Shown here one piece after another: positions 12,224 to 22,050 of a stretch of DNA of 22,402 bases. Under the pieces are notes generated by a model that worked only from the letters and a program-made list of their open reading frames with translations, was not told where the DNA came from and ran no database searches. The position numbers were made by a program, and so were the translations under genes. Every line of letters starts with the position of its first letter. The first letter of the stretch is position 1. This stretch comes from a virus: positions 1 through 22,402 of IMG/VR virus record IMGVR_UViG_3300037189_006242. One strand, 5' to 3'.

Positions 12224-13423
12224 ATGTCGGACAAGAAGTTACAGCACTGTTCCTTTTGTGGAAGCTCTAAAGATAAAGTAAAAAAGCTAATAGTAGGCGA
12301 AGACGTTGCCATTTGTAGCGAATGCATAGAGTTATGCAACCAACTCATTGTAAACGAACACTTAACCGACAAAGTAAAAGAACATGACTCTGCTAACTTT
12401 GATGCGTATAGTATTAAAGATCACCTAGACAGATTAGTTATCGGACAAGATCAGGCTAAAATTGTATTAAGTGTTGCTATCAGTAATCACTATAAGCGTA
12501 TCAATAACCCACCTCAAGATTTAGAAATTCAAAAGGGTAATGTACTACTGATTGGTCCTACTGGATCCGGTAAAACCCTACTCGCTAAGTCAGTAGCCAA
12601 ATATCTTAACGTTCCCTTTGTTGTGGCAGATGCTACGAACTTGACAGAAGCCGGCTATGTCGGAGAAGACGTTGAAAGTATGGTTGGTATGCTACTTGCT
12701 CTTGCGGACAATGATGTTAGTAAAGCAGAACGAGGAATCGTGTTTATCGATGAAATTGATAAGATTGCTCGTAAGAGCGAATCTACTAGCATTACTCGTG
12801 ATGTGTCGGGTGAAGGGGTGCAGCAAGCATTGCTTAAGCTGGTAGAAGGAACCAAATGCAGAGTTAGTCCTGTAGGCAAGCGTAAGCATCCACAAGGTGA
12901 AACTGTAGAAGTCGATACCAAAAACATATTGTTTATTGCCGGCGGAGCTTTTGTCGGACTTGAATCAGTGATTAAGAGCAGAGTTCAAGGATCCACTATT
13001 GGATTCGGTGCTGAGGTAAAGAGCAAGGATGAGAAACAAGACTTGTCTGAGGTATCCCCTGATGATCTCACCCGTTTCGGGATGATTCCAGAATTCATCG
13101 GCCGTTTTACGACAACCTGCACCCTAGAAGAATTGACACTAGAGCAGCTTATTAGCGTACTGACCGACATTAAGAATAGTTTTATCGAACAATACAAGTA
13201 TTTGTTTAGCATCGATGATATAGTATTAGAGTTTACTGAAGGTGCTATCAAAAAGATTGCACAAAACTGTATCGATCTAAAGACAGGCGCCCGCGGCCTA
13301 CATACTGAAATCGAAAGAATTTTGTTACCGCATATGTTTCATATTAGAAAGTACAGGGATAACAACATCGTCAAGGTAGTGATTGATGATGAATTAGTTG
13401 ACAATCCTAAGGCACTTGTTTAA
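12224..13423 (+). CDS. clpX: ClpX, ATP-dependent unfoldase of ClpXP
   Basis: This is a full-length ClpX of 399 aa (E. coli 424). The N-terminal zinc domain has C9, C12, C31 and C34. The AAA+ module has Walker A GPTGSGKT (111-118), pore loop GYVGED (144-149), Walker B VFIDEID (173-179), the RKH substrate loop R220-K221-H222, the box EFIGRF with R294, and sensor-2 GAR (355-357). The ClpP-docking IGF tripeptide is present at 259-261 in [11 protein letters not shown]. All parts needed for substrate unfolding and for handing it to ClpP are therefore visible. The ribosome site is weak. ClpP is encoded 3.2 kb downstream and hsp20 102 bases downstream. The C-terminus is about 25 residues shorter than in E. 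coli. Confidence 0.97.
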
Positions 13424-13458: not shown

Positions 13459-13466
13459 TATAAATA
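13459..13466 (+). promoter_or_regulatory. T4-type late promoter, perfect TATAAATA
   Basis: Exact match to the T4 late consensus, 59 bases before the hsp20 ATG and 35 bases after the clpX stop. Predicted start is about 13472, within the left arm of the hairpin at 13468. Confidence 0.7.
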
Positions 13467-13525: not shown

Positions 13526-13981
13526 ATGACTAGAGAATTAACCCTACGTACCCTTGACATTCCGTCAATTCACAAGTTCGGTATCGGATTTGATAGCATT
13601 CTAGATGAGCTTATGCGAGTCAATGCACAACAGACAAATACCAACTATCCCCCATATAATATCGTAAAGCACAGCGAAGATGCATTCGCAATTGAACTTG
13701 CTGTGGCGGGGTTCCGAGAAGGTGATATCAACATCACGCTAGAAAAGAATGTTCTTACCATTAAAGGCCAACAAACAGAAAGCCTTGATGAGTTAGAAAA
13801 AGAAGTAGAGTATGTGCATCGCGGCATCAGTGCCCGCAACTTTGACCGCACTTTTACTCTTGCAGACTATGTTGAGGTACTTGGTGCAAAGGCTGAGAAT
13901 GGTATTCTCACAATTGAATTGGAGCGACAAGTTCCTGAGGAACAAAAGCCCAAAACGGTTGCAATTACATACAATAAATAA
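13526..13981 (+). CDS. small heat-shock protein, IbpA/Hsp20 family
   Basis: This 151-aa protein carries an alpha-crystallin domain from about residue 38 to 135. Diagnostic features are YPPYNIVKHSEDAFAIELAVAGF at the domain start, ITLEKNVLTIKGQ, an HRGISARNFDRTFTLADYVEV core and the AKAENGILTIELER edge strand, as in IbpA/IbpB. The N-terminal LTLRTLDIPSIHKFGIGFDSI region fits that of IbpA. It binds unfolded proteins without ATP and holds aggregates for later refolding or degradation. A strong AAGGAG site lies 10 bases upstream. The leader has a late box and a hairpin. It lies between clpX and clpS. Confidence 0.95.
   Translation: MTRELTLRTLDIPSIHKFGIGFDSILDELMRVNAQQTNTNYPPYNIVKHSEDAFAIELAVAGFREGDINITLEKNVLTIKGQQTESLDELEKEVEYVHRGISARNFDRTFTLADYVEVLGAKAENGILTIELERQVPEEQKPKTVAITYNK
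13973..13980 (+). promoter_or_regulatory. possible late promoter box (AATAAATA) for clpS
   Basis: AATAAATA lies at the very end of hsp20, 62 bases before the clpS ATG. The predicted start is near 13986, which would put the strong hairpin at 13996 in the clpS leader. It also simply encodes the last codons of hsp20 (Asn-Lys-stop), so chance is possible. Confidence 0.4.
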
Positions 13982-14042: not shown

Positions 14043-14348
14043 ATGGCAAATACCGAAATCCGAAGTAAGATCAAGCCCAATGCTGCACTTAAGGAGCCGC
14101 CTCTGTTCAAGATTATCTATCTGAACGACGACCGAACATCAATAGAGTTTGTGATTAACAGTCTATGTGAATATTTCAACTATAATCCTGACACTGCTAC
14201 GCAAATTACAATGGACATCCACGATAAGGGTAGTGCAGTAGTTGCTGTTCTTCCGTATGAGATTGCGGAGCAAAAGGGGATTGAAGTAACACTTGACGCA
14301 CGTGCCCAAGGTTTCCCGTTGCAGGTTAAAGTAGAATCCGAAGTTTAA
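14043..14348 (+). CDS. clpS: ClpS, N-degron adaptor protein
   Basis: A 101-aa ClpS: KEPPLFKIIYLNDDRTSIEFVINSL matches the core, with N28, D29 and D30 in the N-degron pocket. H60 in DIHDKG corresponds to E. coli His66. The gate position equivalent to E. coli Met40 is Ile34. ClpS delivers proteins with Phe, Leu, Trp or Tyr N-termini to ClpA-ClpP and slows other substrates. A short flexible N-terminus is present. No clpA is in the window, so the partner would be host ClpA unless phage ClpX can be used. It overlaps the convergent minus-strand gene by 4 bases. Confidence 0.95.
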   Translation: MANTEIRSKIKPNAALKEPPLFKIIYLNDDRTSIEFVINSLCEYFNYNPDTATQITMDIHDKGSAVVAVLPYEIAEQKGIEVTLDARAQGFPLQVKVESEV

Positions 14349-15046
14349 ATATTAACTGTTAATCGCTTTGCCCAATAGGGGCTTTTAGCTATAAACGGGT
14401 TGTTTAAATAATTTACATCATCTAAGATAGTATCAACATTTTTAACATATGTACCAAATACCCAGTGCTTAACTTTACGTTCTGTATCGCTCGTTAACAT
14501 AGCACTTAGGGGTGTTTGGTCGTATGTCTCACTAGGCTCTTCGCCATAGAACAAGTCTGTTCTAGGAACTGCACTAGTAACTACTATTATTTTCTTAACA
14601 TCTAAATGACGCTGTAGTTTTTGAACAGTCATTTTAAGATAGGCTAAATCTTCTAATTTAGCAGCAGTTTTGATAATATCCTCCATAGGATTGTCACTGT
14701 TTTGGTTTGCCCAACCATTAACTCCCATGATTGCAATCCCATCAATGATTGCTACATGTTGATGTAGCATACATACGCTTGGAATACTCTCGCATAACAT
14801 CATAAGTTCATTAGTTCTATTAGGAATACTATCCGTAGTTTCATATTCTAAGTCACCCGGGACATAAAATACTCCTTGATAGTGTTTTGACAGATGTACT
14901 AATACTTGTGCCACAGTTCTAATATTAGAACTGATGTTTCCTGCTAATATACAATATAAACTGGATGCTTTGTTTTCCCAATTGAAACTATCATTTGGGT
15001 TCAAATTTAGATCGCTGATTATATCAAACCCGATATCTTGTTGCAT
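14345..15046 (-). CDS. metallophosphoesterase-fold protein with lost metal site
   Basis: The 233-aa sequence has the calcineurin-like phosphoesterase layout: ISDLNLN (10-16), CILAGNIS (32-39), VFYVPGDLEYE (59-69), a mid-protein GIAIMGVNGWAN, VVTSAVPR (155-162) and WVFGTYVKNVD (195-205). Nearly every metal ligand is replaced: DxH became D12-L-N14, GD became G36-N37, GNH became G64-D65-L66, the H of THH became Ser158-Ala159, and GHxH became G198-T199-Y200-V201. Only D12 survives. The protein is thus probably a catalytically dead scaffold or binding protein. It is the last gene of the minus-strand operon, starting 3 bases after the preceding stop without a ribosome site, so it is probably coupled. 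Its end overlaps clpS. Confidence 0.75.
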   Translation of the reverse strand: MQQDIGFDIISDLNLNPNDSFNWENKASSLYCILAGNISSNIRTVAQVLVHLSKHYQGVFYVPGDLEYETTDSIPNRTNELMMLCESIPSVCMLHQHVAIIDGIAIMGVNGWANQNSDNPMEDIIKTAAKLEDLAYLKMTVQKLQRHLDVKKIIVVTSAVPRTDLFYGEEPSETYDQTPLSAMLTSDTERKVKHWVFGTYVKNVDTILDDVNYLNNPFIAKSPYWAKRLTVNI

Positions 15047-15049
15047 TGA

Positions 15050-15358
15050 TTATTTTGCGATTTTGATGTTTGGCTTTTTGGTAGTCTTAACTTTAGCTGC
15101 CTTTACCTTAGGTGCTTCTTCTTTGACAGTTTTAGCGACCTTCTTAGCAGCAGCCTTGACCTTAGGTGCTGCCGTCTTAGCTACAACTTCAACCTTAGCT
15201 ACAGTAGCTTTAGCTTCTACTGCGGCAACCTTTTCTCTAGCAGCATCCTCATCCTTAATTTTCTGCACAGCTTCTTGTAAAAGCATTTCTTCAAATTGCA
15301 AACTTACTGGTTTAGCATTGAAAAAAGTTTTAAGTGCATCGATAAACTTACTTAACAT
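15050..15358 (-). CDS. Lys/Ala-rich histone-like protein, 102 aa
   Basis: The first 45 residues are a helical domain (MLSKFIDALKTFFNAKPVSL, then QFEEMLLQEAVQKIKDEDAA). The rest is a low-complexity Lys/Ala/Val/Pro tail with AxKV/KVKAA repeats, resembling histone H1 and the AlgP/HU-type basic tails of bacteria. DNA or RNA binding by the tail is likely, but no specific family is established. A good AGGAGA site lies before the ATG. A late-type box AATAAATA on the minus strand lies 32 bases upstream. The neighbours are the degenerate phosphoesterase and the 356-aa protein. Confidence 0.75.
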   Translation of the reverse strand: MLSKFIDALKTFFNAKPVSLQFEEMLLQEAVQKIKDEDAAREKVAAVEAKATVAKVEVVAKTAAPKVKAAAKKVAKTVKEEAPKVKAAKVKTTKKPNIKIAK

Positions 15359-15421: not shown

Positions 15422-16492
15422 TTAGAATTTGGTAACGTTGCCGTCTTTATCTACCATCACAACGTCTTTAGTACCCTTCTTGCCGATACCTCGCTGTAGA
15501 GTAACTCCTAGTGGACGCAATCCTGCAATACCTAAGCTTCCGCCATTGCGTGTACTATCGTTTCGGATGAGCCATACCATAACGTGACTCTCTGGAATAT
15601 CGTCTACTCCGGCAATGACTGCGTGAGCATCGACAGTTACGTTTTCGCCGTCTTGAGTAAAGTGTTCAGGCTTGAAAGTTTGAATGACGATACCGCCCTC
15701 TGGGTTGATATCACTGCCGAAGATAGCAGACAATGCTTCCTCTTCGGTAGGTTCCATCACGATTTCTCTACTAAGTTCGTATACCGGGACAGTTGTTCCT
15801 CTTACATTTCTAGTACCAATTTGGTTGAGTTTAATGATACCTTCTTCTACTAGATTCTTGATGACTTCTTTCGCTCTAGCGCCAAACATATTGTCAGCAC
15901 TTTCCCAAACTTCGGCGTCAAGCTTCTTAATGCTGATAGGTAATGATTGACTATCGCTGTTTAGTACAACGTCTGCTTTTCTGCGACCTGCGGTACTTCT
16001 GCCTGCTACGTCTACTTCGGTGCAATCCTCAATAGAAAGTTGTTTTCCTCTAGGGTCAACGAAGGTTACGTTGGCTCTTCCGAATTTCTCAACCACACTC
16101 TGTAACAAACTAGCAAGTTCTAATTCATTAGCAACGCCTGCCGATTTATCGCCCTGCTTACCGGAGTCTTTTACTACGATTACGACTGGACTATCACTGA
16201 AAACAATACCGCCTAAGCTGCTTAAGCCAGGATCCTTCACGAAAGTAGGACCATGTTCTGGCATCTGTTTTTCTAGATATCCTAAAATTTCATCTAACAT
16301 CGATGCTCTGAATTCGTTTTTCTTTGCACCATTAGGAATCTGCACGATAACATTAATCTTGTTACCGCTAATCTTGAAGTCTTCGTAACCAGCGGAACGT
16401 AGAACAGTCTCTACATCATTCTTAGTTAAAGGTTTGGCAGCAGTTTGGTCAACATTTTCAACCAAATTACTTGCAAATTCATAATATCTCAT
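15422..16492 (-). CDS. unknown protein with nuclease-like fold motifs, 356 aa
   Basis: The ATG at 16492 (MRYYEFASNL) is preferred over a TTG at 16528, which is part of the -35 box of a promoter. The middle resembles a PD-(D/E)xK-type core: a helix with E123/E125 (ANELELASLLQSVVEKFG), RRKADVVLNSD with D174, and PISIKKLDAEVW, where K189 and K190 follow Ser187 in the place of the usual Asp/Glu. The catalytic E is thus substituted. The C-terminal third is Gly/Val-rich with no recognised domain. Function unknown; a virion- or DNA-associated role is possible. It heads the minus-strand operon and is divergent from clpP, 81 bases away. Confidence 0.7.
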   Translation of the reverse strand: MRYYEFASNLVENVDQTAAKPLTKNDVETVLRSAGYEDFKISGNKINVIVQIPNGAKKNEFRASMLDEILGYLEKQMPEHGPTFVKDPGLSSLGGIVFSDSPVVIVVKDSGKQGDKSAGVANELELASLLQSVVEKFGRANVTFVDPRGKQLSIEDCTEVDVAGRSTAGRRKADVVLNSDSQSLPISIKKLDAEVWESADNMFGARAKEVIKNLVEEGIIKLNQIGTRNVRGTTVPVYELSREIVMEPTEEEALSAIFGSDINPEGGIVIQTFKPEHFTQDGENVTVDAHAVIAGVDDIPESHVMVWLIRNDSTRNGGSLGIAGLRPLGVTLQRGIGKKGTKDVVMVDKDGNVTKF

Positions 16493-16499
16493 GTATAGT

Positions 16500-16528
16500 G
16501 TACTATCATTAAATGAACGGTGTGTCAA
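16500..16528 (-). promoter_or_regulatory. sigma70-type promoter, minus strand, leaderless geometry
   Basis: On the minus strand TTGACA (16528-16523), 17-base spacer, TAGTAC (16505-16500). Only 7 bases separate the -10 from the ATG at 16492, the same geometry as at the ligase. The -10 sits in a short dyad ATAGT-AC-ACTAT. The -10 is weaker than at the other promoters. Confidence 0.55.
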
Positions 16529-16550: not shown

Positions 16551-16573
16551 ACAAGTTTTTGAAAAGGAAGAAT

Positions 16574-17161
16574 ATGAGCTTAGTTCCAATGGTGCTTGAA
16601 CAGACCTCACGCGGTGAGCGTTCATACGACATTTATTCCCGACTGCTTAAGGACCGTGTAATTTTGCTTGAGGGCGAAGTGCATGACCAAATGGCAAACC
16701 TTATTGTAGCACAATTGCTATATCTCGAAAGTGAGAATCCTGATGCAGACATTAGCCTTTACATCAATAGCCCAGGCGGCAGTGTTACTGCTGGTATGGC
16801 AATCTATGATACTATGCAGTTTGTAAGGCCCGATATTACTACTATCGTGATGGGTCAAGCTTGCTCAATGGGTTCGTTACTTGCTCAAGCAGGGGCTCCT
16901 GGTAAACGTAAGATGCTTCCTCATGCACGACATATGATTCACCAGCCCTCAGGCGGCGCACGTGGTCAGGCTACTGATATGGAAATTCAAGTTAAAGAAA
17001 TTCTTGCAATGAAGAAGTCATTGACTGAAATCTATGTCAATCATAATAGTGCTGGCAAGACATATGAACAGCTTATTGCTGACATGGAACGTGACTTCTT
17101 TATGAGTGCGCCAGAAGCACTTGCATATGGGCTTATTGATGAGGTAATCATCAAGCGTTAA
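16574..17161 (+). CDS. clpP: ClpP, ATP-dependent Clp serine protease
   Basis: A 195-aa ClpP with Ser98 in GQACSMGS, His123 in MIHQPSGG and Asp174 in MERDFFMS; the triad is complete. The sequence [11 protein letters not shown] and the GQATDMEI handle-region helix are intact. The ATG at 16574 has a GGAAGA ribosome site; the TTG at 16559 is rejected. The N-terminus [15 protein letters not shown] coincides with the mature E. coli N-terminus ALVPMVIEQ, so no propeptide is encoded. It should form the double-ring chamber that degrades substrates unfolded by ClpX or ClpA. It lies divergent from the minus-strand operon and has no clear promoter of its own. Confidence 0.97.
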
Positions 17162-21133: not shown

Positions 21134-21330
21134 TGCGTATTCGTGCTGTTATTGAGTTTGACCTCACATTTAGCGATGATATTCCGAACATTGAGGAGTT
21201 AACTGCATACCATAACGCTAACCTAAACGAGAGTATTGCTCTAGAAATCAAAAATCTTCTAGAGGATGAGCATCGTGGTCTAGCAGAATATGATAGTGCT
21301 GTTGTGTCTGTGCGAGAGGTTCTTGTATAA
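21133..21330 (+). CDS. small acidic hypothetical protein, 65 aa
   Basis: Starts at a TAATG overlap with the SWIM gene. The chain is acidic and helical (DDIPNIEELTAYHNANLNES, then IALEIKNLLEDEHR) between two beta strands (RIRAVIEFDLTF and AVVSVREVLV). No family is recognised. Its TAA overlaps the next ATG. Confidence 0.7.
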   Translation: MRIRAVIEFDLTFSDDIPNIEELTAYHNANLNESIALEIKNLLEDEHRGLAEYDSAVVSVREVLV

Positions 21331-21539
21331 TGCAGTGGGTTCGTGAACATAGCAAGCCTTATAAGCTGGAGCTGAAATACAAGCCCGGCTATGATGTTTG
21401 GCGTGAGGTGCAAGATACTCTCACTGAATCCAAAAAGTGGTGCAAGCAGAACAAGATGATGATTTGGGATGATGGATTGTTCTATATTCGATTTACTAAT
21501 GAGCGGGACCTATCCTGGTTCCTGTTGAGGTGGTCATGA
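21330..21539 (+). CDS. LRWS tandem family member 1, 69 aa
   Basis: A TAATG overlap starts it. It is Lys/Trp-rich with a Y-x-L-x-L-K-Y-K-x-G start, a K-x-W-C-K-Q helix and ends in WDDGLFYIRFTNERDLSWFLLRWS. The last 10 residues (ERDLSWFLLRWS region) recur in the next two genes (ELAFFILRWS and DVAWFMLRWS). The DNA encoding LRWS is also the ribosome site and overlap of the next gene. Function unknown; the family looks like a tandem expansion. Confidence 0.75.
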   Translation: MQWVREHSKPYKLELKYKPGYDVWREVQDTLTESKKWCKQNKMMIWDDGLFYIRFTNERDLSWFLLRWS

Positions 21540-21745
21540 AAACTGCATTCACATTTAAGAATTGGTATTGGGGCGATGAAGAACCTCCGCAATGGTGGAG
21601 CAACTTCTTGCGCGGCCGCTGGGCAACTGATGCTTATAAAGAATTATATCCTATTGCTAAGGTTAGAGAAAAAACAAACGGCGACATTCGTGTTGTATTC
21701 AATGATCCTAATGAACTTGCATTCTTTATATTGAGGTGGTCGTGA
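21536..21745 (+). CDS. LRWS tandem family member 2, 69 aa
   Basis: The ATG at 21536 overlaps the stop of member 1 (ATGA); an upstream GTG is not needed. The protein starts MKTAFTFKNWYWGDEEPPQW and ends in GDIRVVFNDPNELAFFILRWS, the same terminal plan as members 1 and 3. The function is unknown. Trp and Tyr are abundant. Confidence 0.75.
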   Translation: MKTAFTFKNWYWGDEEPPQWWSNFLRGRWATDAYKELYPIAKVREKTNGDIRVVFNDPNELAFFILRWS

Positions 21746-22050
21746 GTGTAACATCCGTTACCTACGGTAAATGGGTGCAGATTAAGCGAGTTGTACCAAA
21801 GTTTGTTTGGCGCACTGGACATGCTGCAGGAAACCCAATCGATTTAGGTTTCACCGCTGCACGTGGCAAGATTAGTAAAGGCGACATGCTCATTTCAGGC
21901 TGGATATCTGATATTGATCCTCATGATTATGGAGATATGCGAGAATGGTGTGAACAGAATCTAAAGCACAGTGACTGGTGTACAGGTGTCTATTACATTA
22001 TCCTGCAACGGGAAGAAGATGTTGCCTGGTTTATGTTGAGGTGGTCATAA
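21742..22050 (+). CDS. LRWS tandem family member 3, 102 aa
   Basis: The GTG at 21742 overlaps the TGA of member 2 in the same way as the ATGA at 21536, so GTG is the likely start; GTG 21736 is less likely. The N-terminal part (YGKWVQIKRVVPKFVWRTGH, then DLGFTAARGKISKGD) differs from members 1 and 2, and the end (DMREWCEQNLKHSDWCTGVY, then QREEDVAWFMLRWS) matches. It carries an added N-terminal block of about 30 residues. Function unknown. Confidence 0.7.
   Translation: MSVTSVTYGKWVQIKRVVPKFVWRTGHAAGNPIDLGFTAARGKISKGDMLISGWISDIDPHDYGDMREWCEQNLKHSDWCTGVYYIILQREEDVAWFMLRWS

Follow-up and report, generated by a model that had tools for sequence, protein, structure and literature searches.

The B subunits of DNA polymerases keep a metallophosphoesterase fold, have lost catalysis and serve as a scaffold. 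Such catalysis-lost scaffolds are known mainly from eukaryotes, as exemplified by VPS29 and GAP50. In the retromer, the metallophosphoesterase fold of VPS29 serves as a protein-binding scaffold at the membrane (PMC9636581), and GAP50 of Plasmodium (3tgh, 'the anchor in the inner membrane complex') is a protein of the same fold that anchors a complex in the membrane. On the phage side, SPO1 encodes a Clp adaptor-like protein, Gp53 (PMC6873191), and phage metallophosphoesterases of PHROG_1649 are encoded by Agrobacterium phage Atu_ph07, Sinorhizobium phage Phosso, and Vibrio phage 2.275.O. No published description of a phage metallophosphoesterase pseudoenzyme, or of the present family, was found in the open-access literature. 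The phage family reported here would be an independent case.

In its mode of working, with the metallophosphoesterase fold as a scaffold, the phage pseudoenzyme is likened most to VPS29, its partner being a candidate by gene neighbourhood. However, VPS29 is eukaryotic, belongs to a different subfamily, and is less similar in structure (Foldseek E 6e-4 to 1e-2). GAP50 is likewise eukaryotic and is itself the membrane anchor, and its relationship to the pseudoenzyme is at the fold level only. Gp53 acts on the host ClpC and shares no known homology with the pseudoenzyme, for which we infer a Clp role. The PHROG_1649 enzymes have a common fold, motif order, and C-terminal N-P element with the pseudoenzymes, but they keep every metal ligand, whereas the pseudoenzymes keep at most two of the eight metal or catalytic positions, are shorter, and have invariant residues of their own. 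The best structural match, Mycobacterium PptH (6unc), is an active phosphopantetheinyl hydrolase.

The window, that is, the whole 22.4-kb stretch of a virus record that was analysed, carries the pseudoenzyme gene among the features listed in Table 1. The plus strand of the gene is stop-rich and the minus strand is the coding one. An initial annotation of this DNA had claimed an intact open frame of 233 aa without stating the strand, and the list of open reading frames agreed with it.

Table 1. Positions of the pseudoenzyme gene, its former motifs, and its neighbours in the window
Feature	Positions	Strand	Basis
clpX with C4 zinc finger	12224..13423	+	Pfam zf-C4_ClpX 5.2e-15, AAA_2 6.2e-32
hsp20	13526..13981	+	Pfam HSP20 5.6e-20
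clpS, convergent; 3' ends overlap the pseudoenzyme gene by 4 bases (14345-14348)	14043..14348	+	Pfam ClpS 6.2e-24
Pseudo-metallophosphoesterase gene, 233 aa	14345..15046	-	open frame, PHROG_1649, hhalign, AlphaFold2, PptH match
Former motif V (GHxH): G198-T199-Y200-V201	14444..14455	-	hhalign; first His lost in 69/69
Former motif IV (T/G-H-H; THH/GHH): T157-S158-A159	14570..14578	-	hhalign; column 158 His in 7/69
Former motif III (GNHE): G64-D65-L66-E67	14846..14857	-	hhalign and family alignment
Former motif II (GD): G36-N37	14936..14941	-	hhalign; Asn in 69/69
Pseudoenzyme-specific conserved loop F21-N-W-E-x-K26, candidate interface	14969..14986	-	family conservation
Former motif I (DxH): D12-L13-N14	15005..15013	-	hhalign; column 12 Asp in 67/69, column 14 His in 6/69
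Upstream gene, 102 aa, K/A-rich, amphipathic-looking N-terminus; proposed membrane tether and partner	15050..15358	-	open frame; neighbourhood
Tail at the C-terminus of the upstream protein, TKKPNIKIAK	15053..15082	-	tail pattern
368-aa phrog_12709 protein, function unassigned, upstream of the tail gene	15422..16528	-	PHROG 1.5e-30; some relatives
clpP; TTG start as listed, in-frame ATG five codons in	16559..17161	+	Pfam CLP_protease 4.1e-80

The window protein matched the PHROG_1649 metallo-phosphoesterase family over residues 7-218 (E=1.1e-8), and 39 of 45 family members matched this family and no other PHROG family. The Pfam Metallophos model matched none of the 45 members, although the same model does match the active homologues, and a sequence-profile search against solved structures gave chance matches only. 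When the family was aligned profile to profile (hhalign) with nine intact phage metallophosphoesterases, the probability was 99.4 (E=4.5e-21) with each motif aligned. The AlphaFold2 model obtained from a 45-sequence input reached a pLDDT of 90.1 and a pTM of 0.89. Its best match among solved structures was PptH (Z 21.1 over 218 residues, 3.3 A, 17% identity); Foldseek against solved calcineurin-like phosphoesterases gave E=1.1e-7, with all top matches being metallophosphoesterases, and the most similar predicted viral structures were either named phosphoesterases or nameless. The metallophosphoesterase fold that the initial annotation had read from the motifs was thus recovered by the model, the PptH match, and the profile alignment, and structure prediction together with the comparison to active enzymes showed no different fold. 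By descent and fold, the protein belongs to the calcineurin-like metallophosphoesterase superfamily, but not to its active enzymes, and the PHROG_1649 label 'metallo-phosphoesterase' would mislead on its function.

All five substitutions proposed by the initial annotation (DLN, GN, GDL, TSA, and GTYV) read exactly as claimed. Since the profile-profile alignment sets the residues at the former motifs opposite the ligand residues of the active phage enzymes, the motif-by-motif correspondence is more than chance. The ligand set of a di-metal phosphoesterase (DxH, GD, GNHE, GH/TH, GHxH) is absent from the window protein and its relatives. D12 is the only one of the eight ligand or catalytic positions left in the window protein, and no more than two are kept in any of 69 distinct members, which come from uncultured T4-like phages and range down to 39% identity. 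Across these sequences, the motif III Asn is kept in none and its His in one, and the second His of motif V is kept in a single member (L119). As a control, 19 intact homologues extracted from the same phages keep DLH/DVH, GD, GNHE, GH/TH, and GHxH. The loss is therefore not confined to this copy, the same-clade relatives being devoid of the ligands too, and the pseudoenzyme status is well supported.

In two trees, the pseudoenzymes formed one clade with a support of 100/100, set apart by a very long stem (2-3 changes per site). Since they form one clade at this support, the simplest reading is a single loss before the family spread, and the metal centre would most simply have been lost once and early. 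Neither the point at which this stem attaches to the active enzymes nor the placement of the Atu_ph07, Phosso, and Vibrio sequences was settled by the two trees. A recent duplication of a nearby intact gene was also considered and is unsupported, given the very long stem and the unsettled neighbours. No relative of the pseudoenzyme was found in GTDB genomes, and cultured phages yielded distant active enzymes only. The relatives of the window are T4-like phages; in four cases the contig measures 259-361 kb and encodes a capsid protein of the T4 type. Among cultured phages, Vibrio phage 2.275.O and the Pseudomonas phages PA5oct, MIJ3, and Paride have the closest capsid proteins (66-67% identity). 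The methanotroph-phage marker pmoC was not found, in a search whose positive control also gave no signal. The loss of the metal centre is fixed across diverged, widespread aquatic viruses.

A second gene is linked to the pseudoenzyme. In each of the 64 loci reaching that far, a protein of about 65-146 residues (63 distinct proteins) is encoded directly upstream on the same strand, with a gap of usually -1 to 12 bases. This family, referred to here as the tail protein, is assigned to no Pfam family and matches no PHROG convincingly. By hydropathy, the N-terminus is transmembrane-like in 46 of the 63 proteins and mostly amphipathic-looking in the rest; the window protein has an amphipathic start, MLSKFIDALKTFF, without a clear transmembrane helix. 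The middle is rich in Lys, Ala, Pro, and Val, basic, and predicted to be disordered. Of the 63 distinct proteins, 47 end in the C-terminal pattern P-x-[MIL]-x-[VI]-[AV]-K, whereas shuffled sequences gave an expectation of 0.0045; this is a clear excess but, the related sequences not being independent, not a probability. The pattern was missing or altered in the other 16. Furthermore, the codons of the tail vary at wobble positions while the residues stay, which indicates selection on the protein sequence. A ribosome-binding constraint is thus an unlikely source of the conserved tail. A shared Clp degron is unsupported as well, because the pattern occurs once per genome and at the pseudoenzyme locus only (7 matching of 12 large contigs scanned). 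An APYKVExP element was also frequent in the family, which comprises the window protein and the upstream open reading frames of L010-L124.

The charge pattern around a hydrophobic stretch indicates membrane topology according to the positive-inside rule. In the transmembrane versions, the residues before the stretch are acidic and those after it are basic, which by this rule suggests that the tail is cytoplasmic. When the tail protein and the pseudoenzyme were modelled by AlphaFold2 as an in-frame read-through with glycine in place of stops, the tail was disordered (pLDDT about 40); since it was held by a short artificial link, this model neither supports nor excludes docking.

Taking these observations together, we propose as the best explanation, with a probability of roughly 45%, that the pseudoenzyme is a non-catalytic VPS29-like scaffold, which the upstream protein anchors at the membrane and which serves the phage Clp system. 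The phage would have kept the metallophosphoesterase fold without catalysis as a protein-binding scaffold. The upstream protein may be inserted into the inner membrane or attached to its surface, the tail facing the cytoplasm, and the conserved C-terminal tail may dock on the pseudoenzyme. The two proteins would then form a membrane platform, which holds a client or assists in presenting proteins to the phage Clp protease and Hsp20 during infection. Points that count against this reading are the missing or altered tail pattern in 16 of the 63 upstream proteins, the amphipathic start of the one in the window, and the cultured phages described below that have Clp genes but no detected pseudoenzyme. 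This setting makes the function testable, the small conserved tail peptide being a candidate ligand and the phage Clp protease being encoded next to it.

The Clp neighbourhood was fixed in the 68 loci of the first wide collection, on which the gene-order counts are based. In all 68, clpS was the convergent neighbour of the pseudoenzyme gene (with about 0.7 kb between them in L025 and L047) and hsp20 came next after clpS; clpX followed in 66, the other two being contig ends, and clpP lay on the opposite side wherever the contig was long enough. One relative carries two tandem ClpP-like genes (L006, 1669-2852). Moreover, a ClpA-type unfoldase of about 760 residues was encoded far from clpX, clpS, and clpP in seven of eight large contigs scanned (G001-G006, G017, and G024, which are the contigs of L022, L020, L016, L072, L057, L040, L108, and L124). 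ClpS therefore has a phage-encoded partner, and the phages possess a nearly complete Clp set. This draws attention to phages with such a set. The conserved order of phage genes can, in general, persist without functional coupling.

A different role within the same neighbourhood would be that of an adaptor or anti-adaptor, in which the pseudoenzyme binds a phage or host Clp unfoldase directly and alters degradation, the tail protein being an accessory or a substrate. The fixed position of the gene between clpS and clpP, the ClpA-type unfoldase encoded in seven of the eight large contigs, and the precedent of a phage Clp adaptor in SPO1 are compatible with such a role. However, no resemblance of the pseudoenzyme to a known Clp adaptor was found, and its gene lies on the strand opposite to clpX, clpS, and clpP. 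Furthermore, PA5oct and Paride share the gene order, with a clpX-like gene followed by hsp20 and clpS, yet a profile search detected a pseudoenzyme in neither of them, so that the Clp genes do not need it. We consider direct adaptor action unlikely, though the strongest competitor of the scaffold. It is also rather improbable, slightly more so than the adaptor, that the two-gene platform recruits the near-complete phage Clp set (ClpA, ClpX, ClpP, and ClpS, together with Hsp20) to the host's inner membrane during infection; if true, the phage would build a station linked to the membrane, where protein quality is controlled or host proteins are cleared. In PA5oct and Paride, both cultured Pseudomonas jumbo phages, ftsH lies downstream of the clpX-like gene, hsp20, and clpS (PA5oct, L169, 3132-6294; Paride, L170, 3032-6193). 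Paride kills dormant cells (PMC10761892).

The intact homologues of the same phages offer another possible partner, as the pseudoenzyme could regulate or structurally complement a nearby intact phosphoesterase, perhaps as one half of a heterodimer. In 20 of the 29 contigs searched, a PHROG_1649 homologue that retains every ligand is encoded at a distance of 3.6-17 kb from the pseudoenzyme. It was not found in the other nine; several of these end too early to tell, but at least one, the contig of L032, continues for about 39 kb on the side where the homologue would be expected. In addition, the two proteins are far apart in sequence, as reflected by the stem of 2-3 changes per site, and their genes do not share an operon, which leaves such a partnership with a low probability, below that of the adaptor. 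In Vibrio phage 2.275.O (L174, 1417-2211 and 2626-3327), clpP and the gene of an intact metallophosphoesterase lie two genes apart, an arrangement hinting at an old link between the metallophosphoesterase family and phage Clp genes.

The distribution of conserved residues bears on what the scaffold may bind. F21, W23, and K26 were present in 69 of 69 sequences and E24 in 67, and this loop is not among the invariant columns of the active homologues. S29 and L30 of the same loop, as well as Q145, H147, D149, D187, K191, W195, K202, K227, and R228, were also invariant or nearly so. The newly invariant F21, W23, K26, Q145, H147, D187, K191, and W195 sit away from the catalytic positions. At the old site, the columns of the motif III Asn and the second motif V His were highly variable (92nd and 79th percentile of entropy, respectively), and those of the motif I His, the motif IV His, and the first motif V His were of average variability only. 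With the III-N and V-H2 columns so variable, there is no obvious sign that the family retains the former catalytic pocket for binding. The conservation pattern appears more in keeping with a surface that binds protein than with a ligand pocket that has been preserved.

Among the functions that the initial annotation had proposed, the structural or partner role therefore fits best, whereas nucleotide binding and the shielding of a second messenger gain no support, given the variable III-N and V-H2 columns. In its finding on this gene, the initial annotation mentioned neither the Clp setting nor the tail protein next to it nor the intact homologue. A sensor or sponge, binding but not cleaving a nucleotide or second messenger, would account for the near invariance of D12, N37, E67, and P161 at the old site. 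Nevertheless, apart from the average or high variability of the five former-ligand columns, the family conservation gave no sign of a replacement ligand set, and we regard this function as improbable, a little more so than the heterodimer.

Partial ligand loss is tolerated by some enzymes, and D12 is kept in 67 of 69 sequences, so a hydrolase with a changed metal site or without metal was also weighed. It is very unlikely in view of the two or fewer positions kept in any member, the motif II Asn in 69 of 69, and the loss of the first motif V His in 69 of 69.

Selection on the gene was estimated by the Nei-Gojobori method from 18 pairs with dS of 0.09-0.75, pairs with larger dS being left out as increasingly saturated. 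The dN/dS was 0.04-0.18 in all 18 pairs, far below 1, so that the check across homologues pointed to purifying selection. Decay of the gene, for which a 31-residue in-frame deletion in L012 and the shortened L076 could speak, was rejected as hardly credible on the basis of this dN/dS and the breadth of the family, as these two and the contig-edge fragment L075 are the sole defective copies among 71 distinct sequences and the frame and fold residues are kept in relatives down to 39% identity. The predicted fold, the family-wide ligand loss, and the dN/dS agree with the view of the initial annotation that this is a maintained pseudoenzyme rather than a decaying one. In L012 (1521-2129), which is closely related to the window protein, motif III and a core strand fall within the deletion; L012 and L076 are exceptions or assembly faults.

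Two minor observations were made elsewhere in the window. A single exact T4 late-promoter-like TATAAATA is located at 13459 on the plus strand, between clpX and hsp20, and none precedes the tail gene in the window. Three successive small open reading frames at 21330-22050 (69, 71, and 104 aa) have a common C-terminus, F-x-L-R-W-S, and are probably tandem duplicates.
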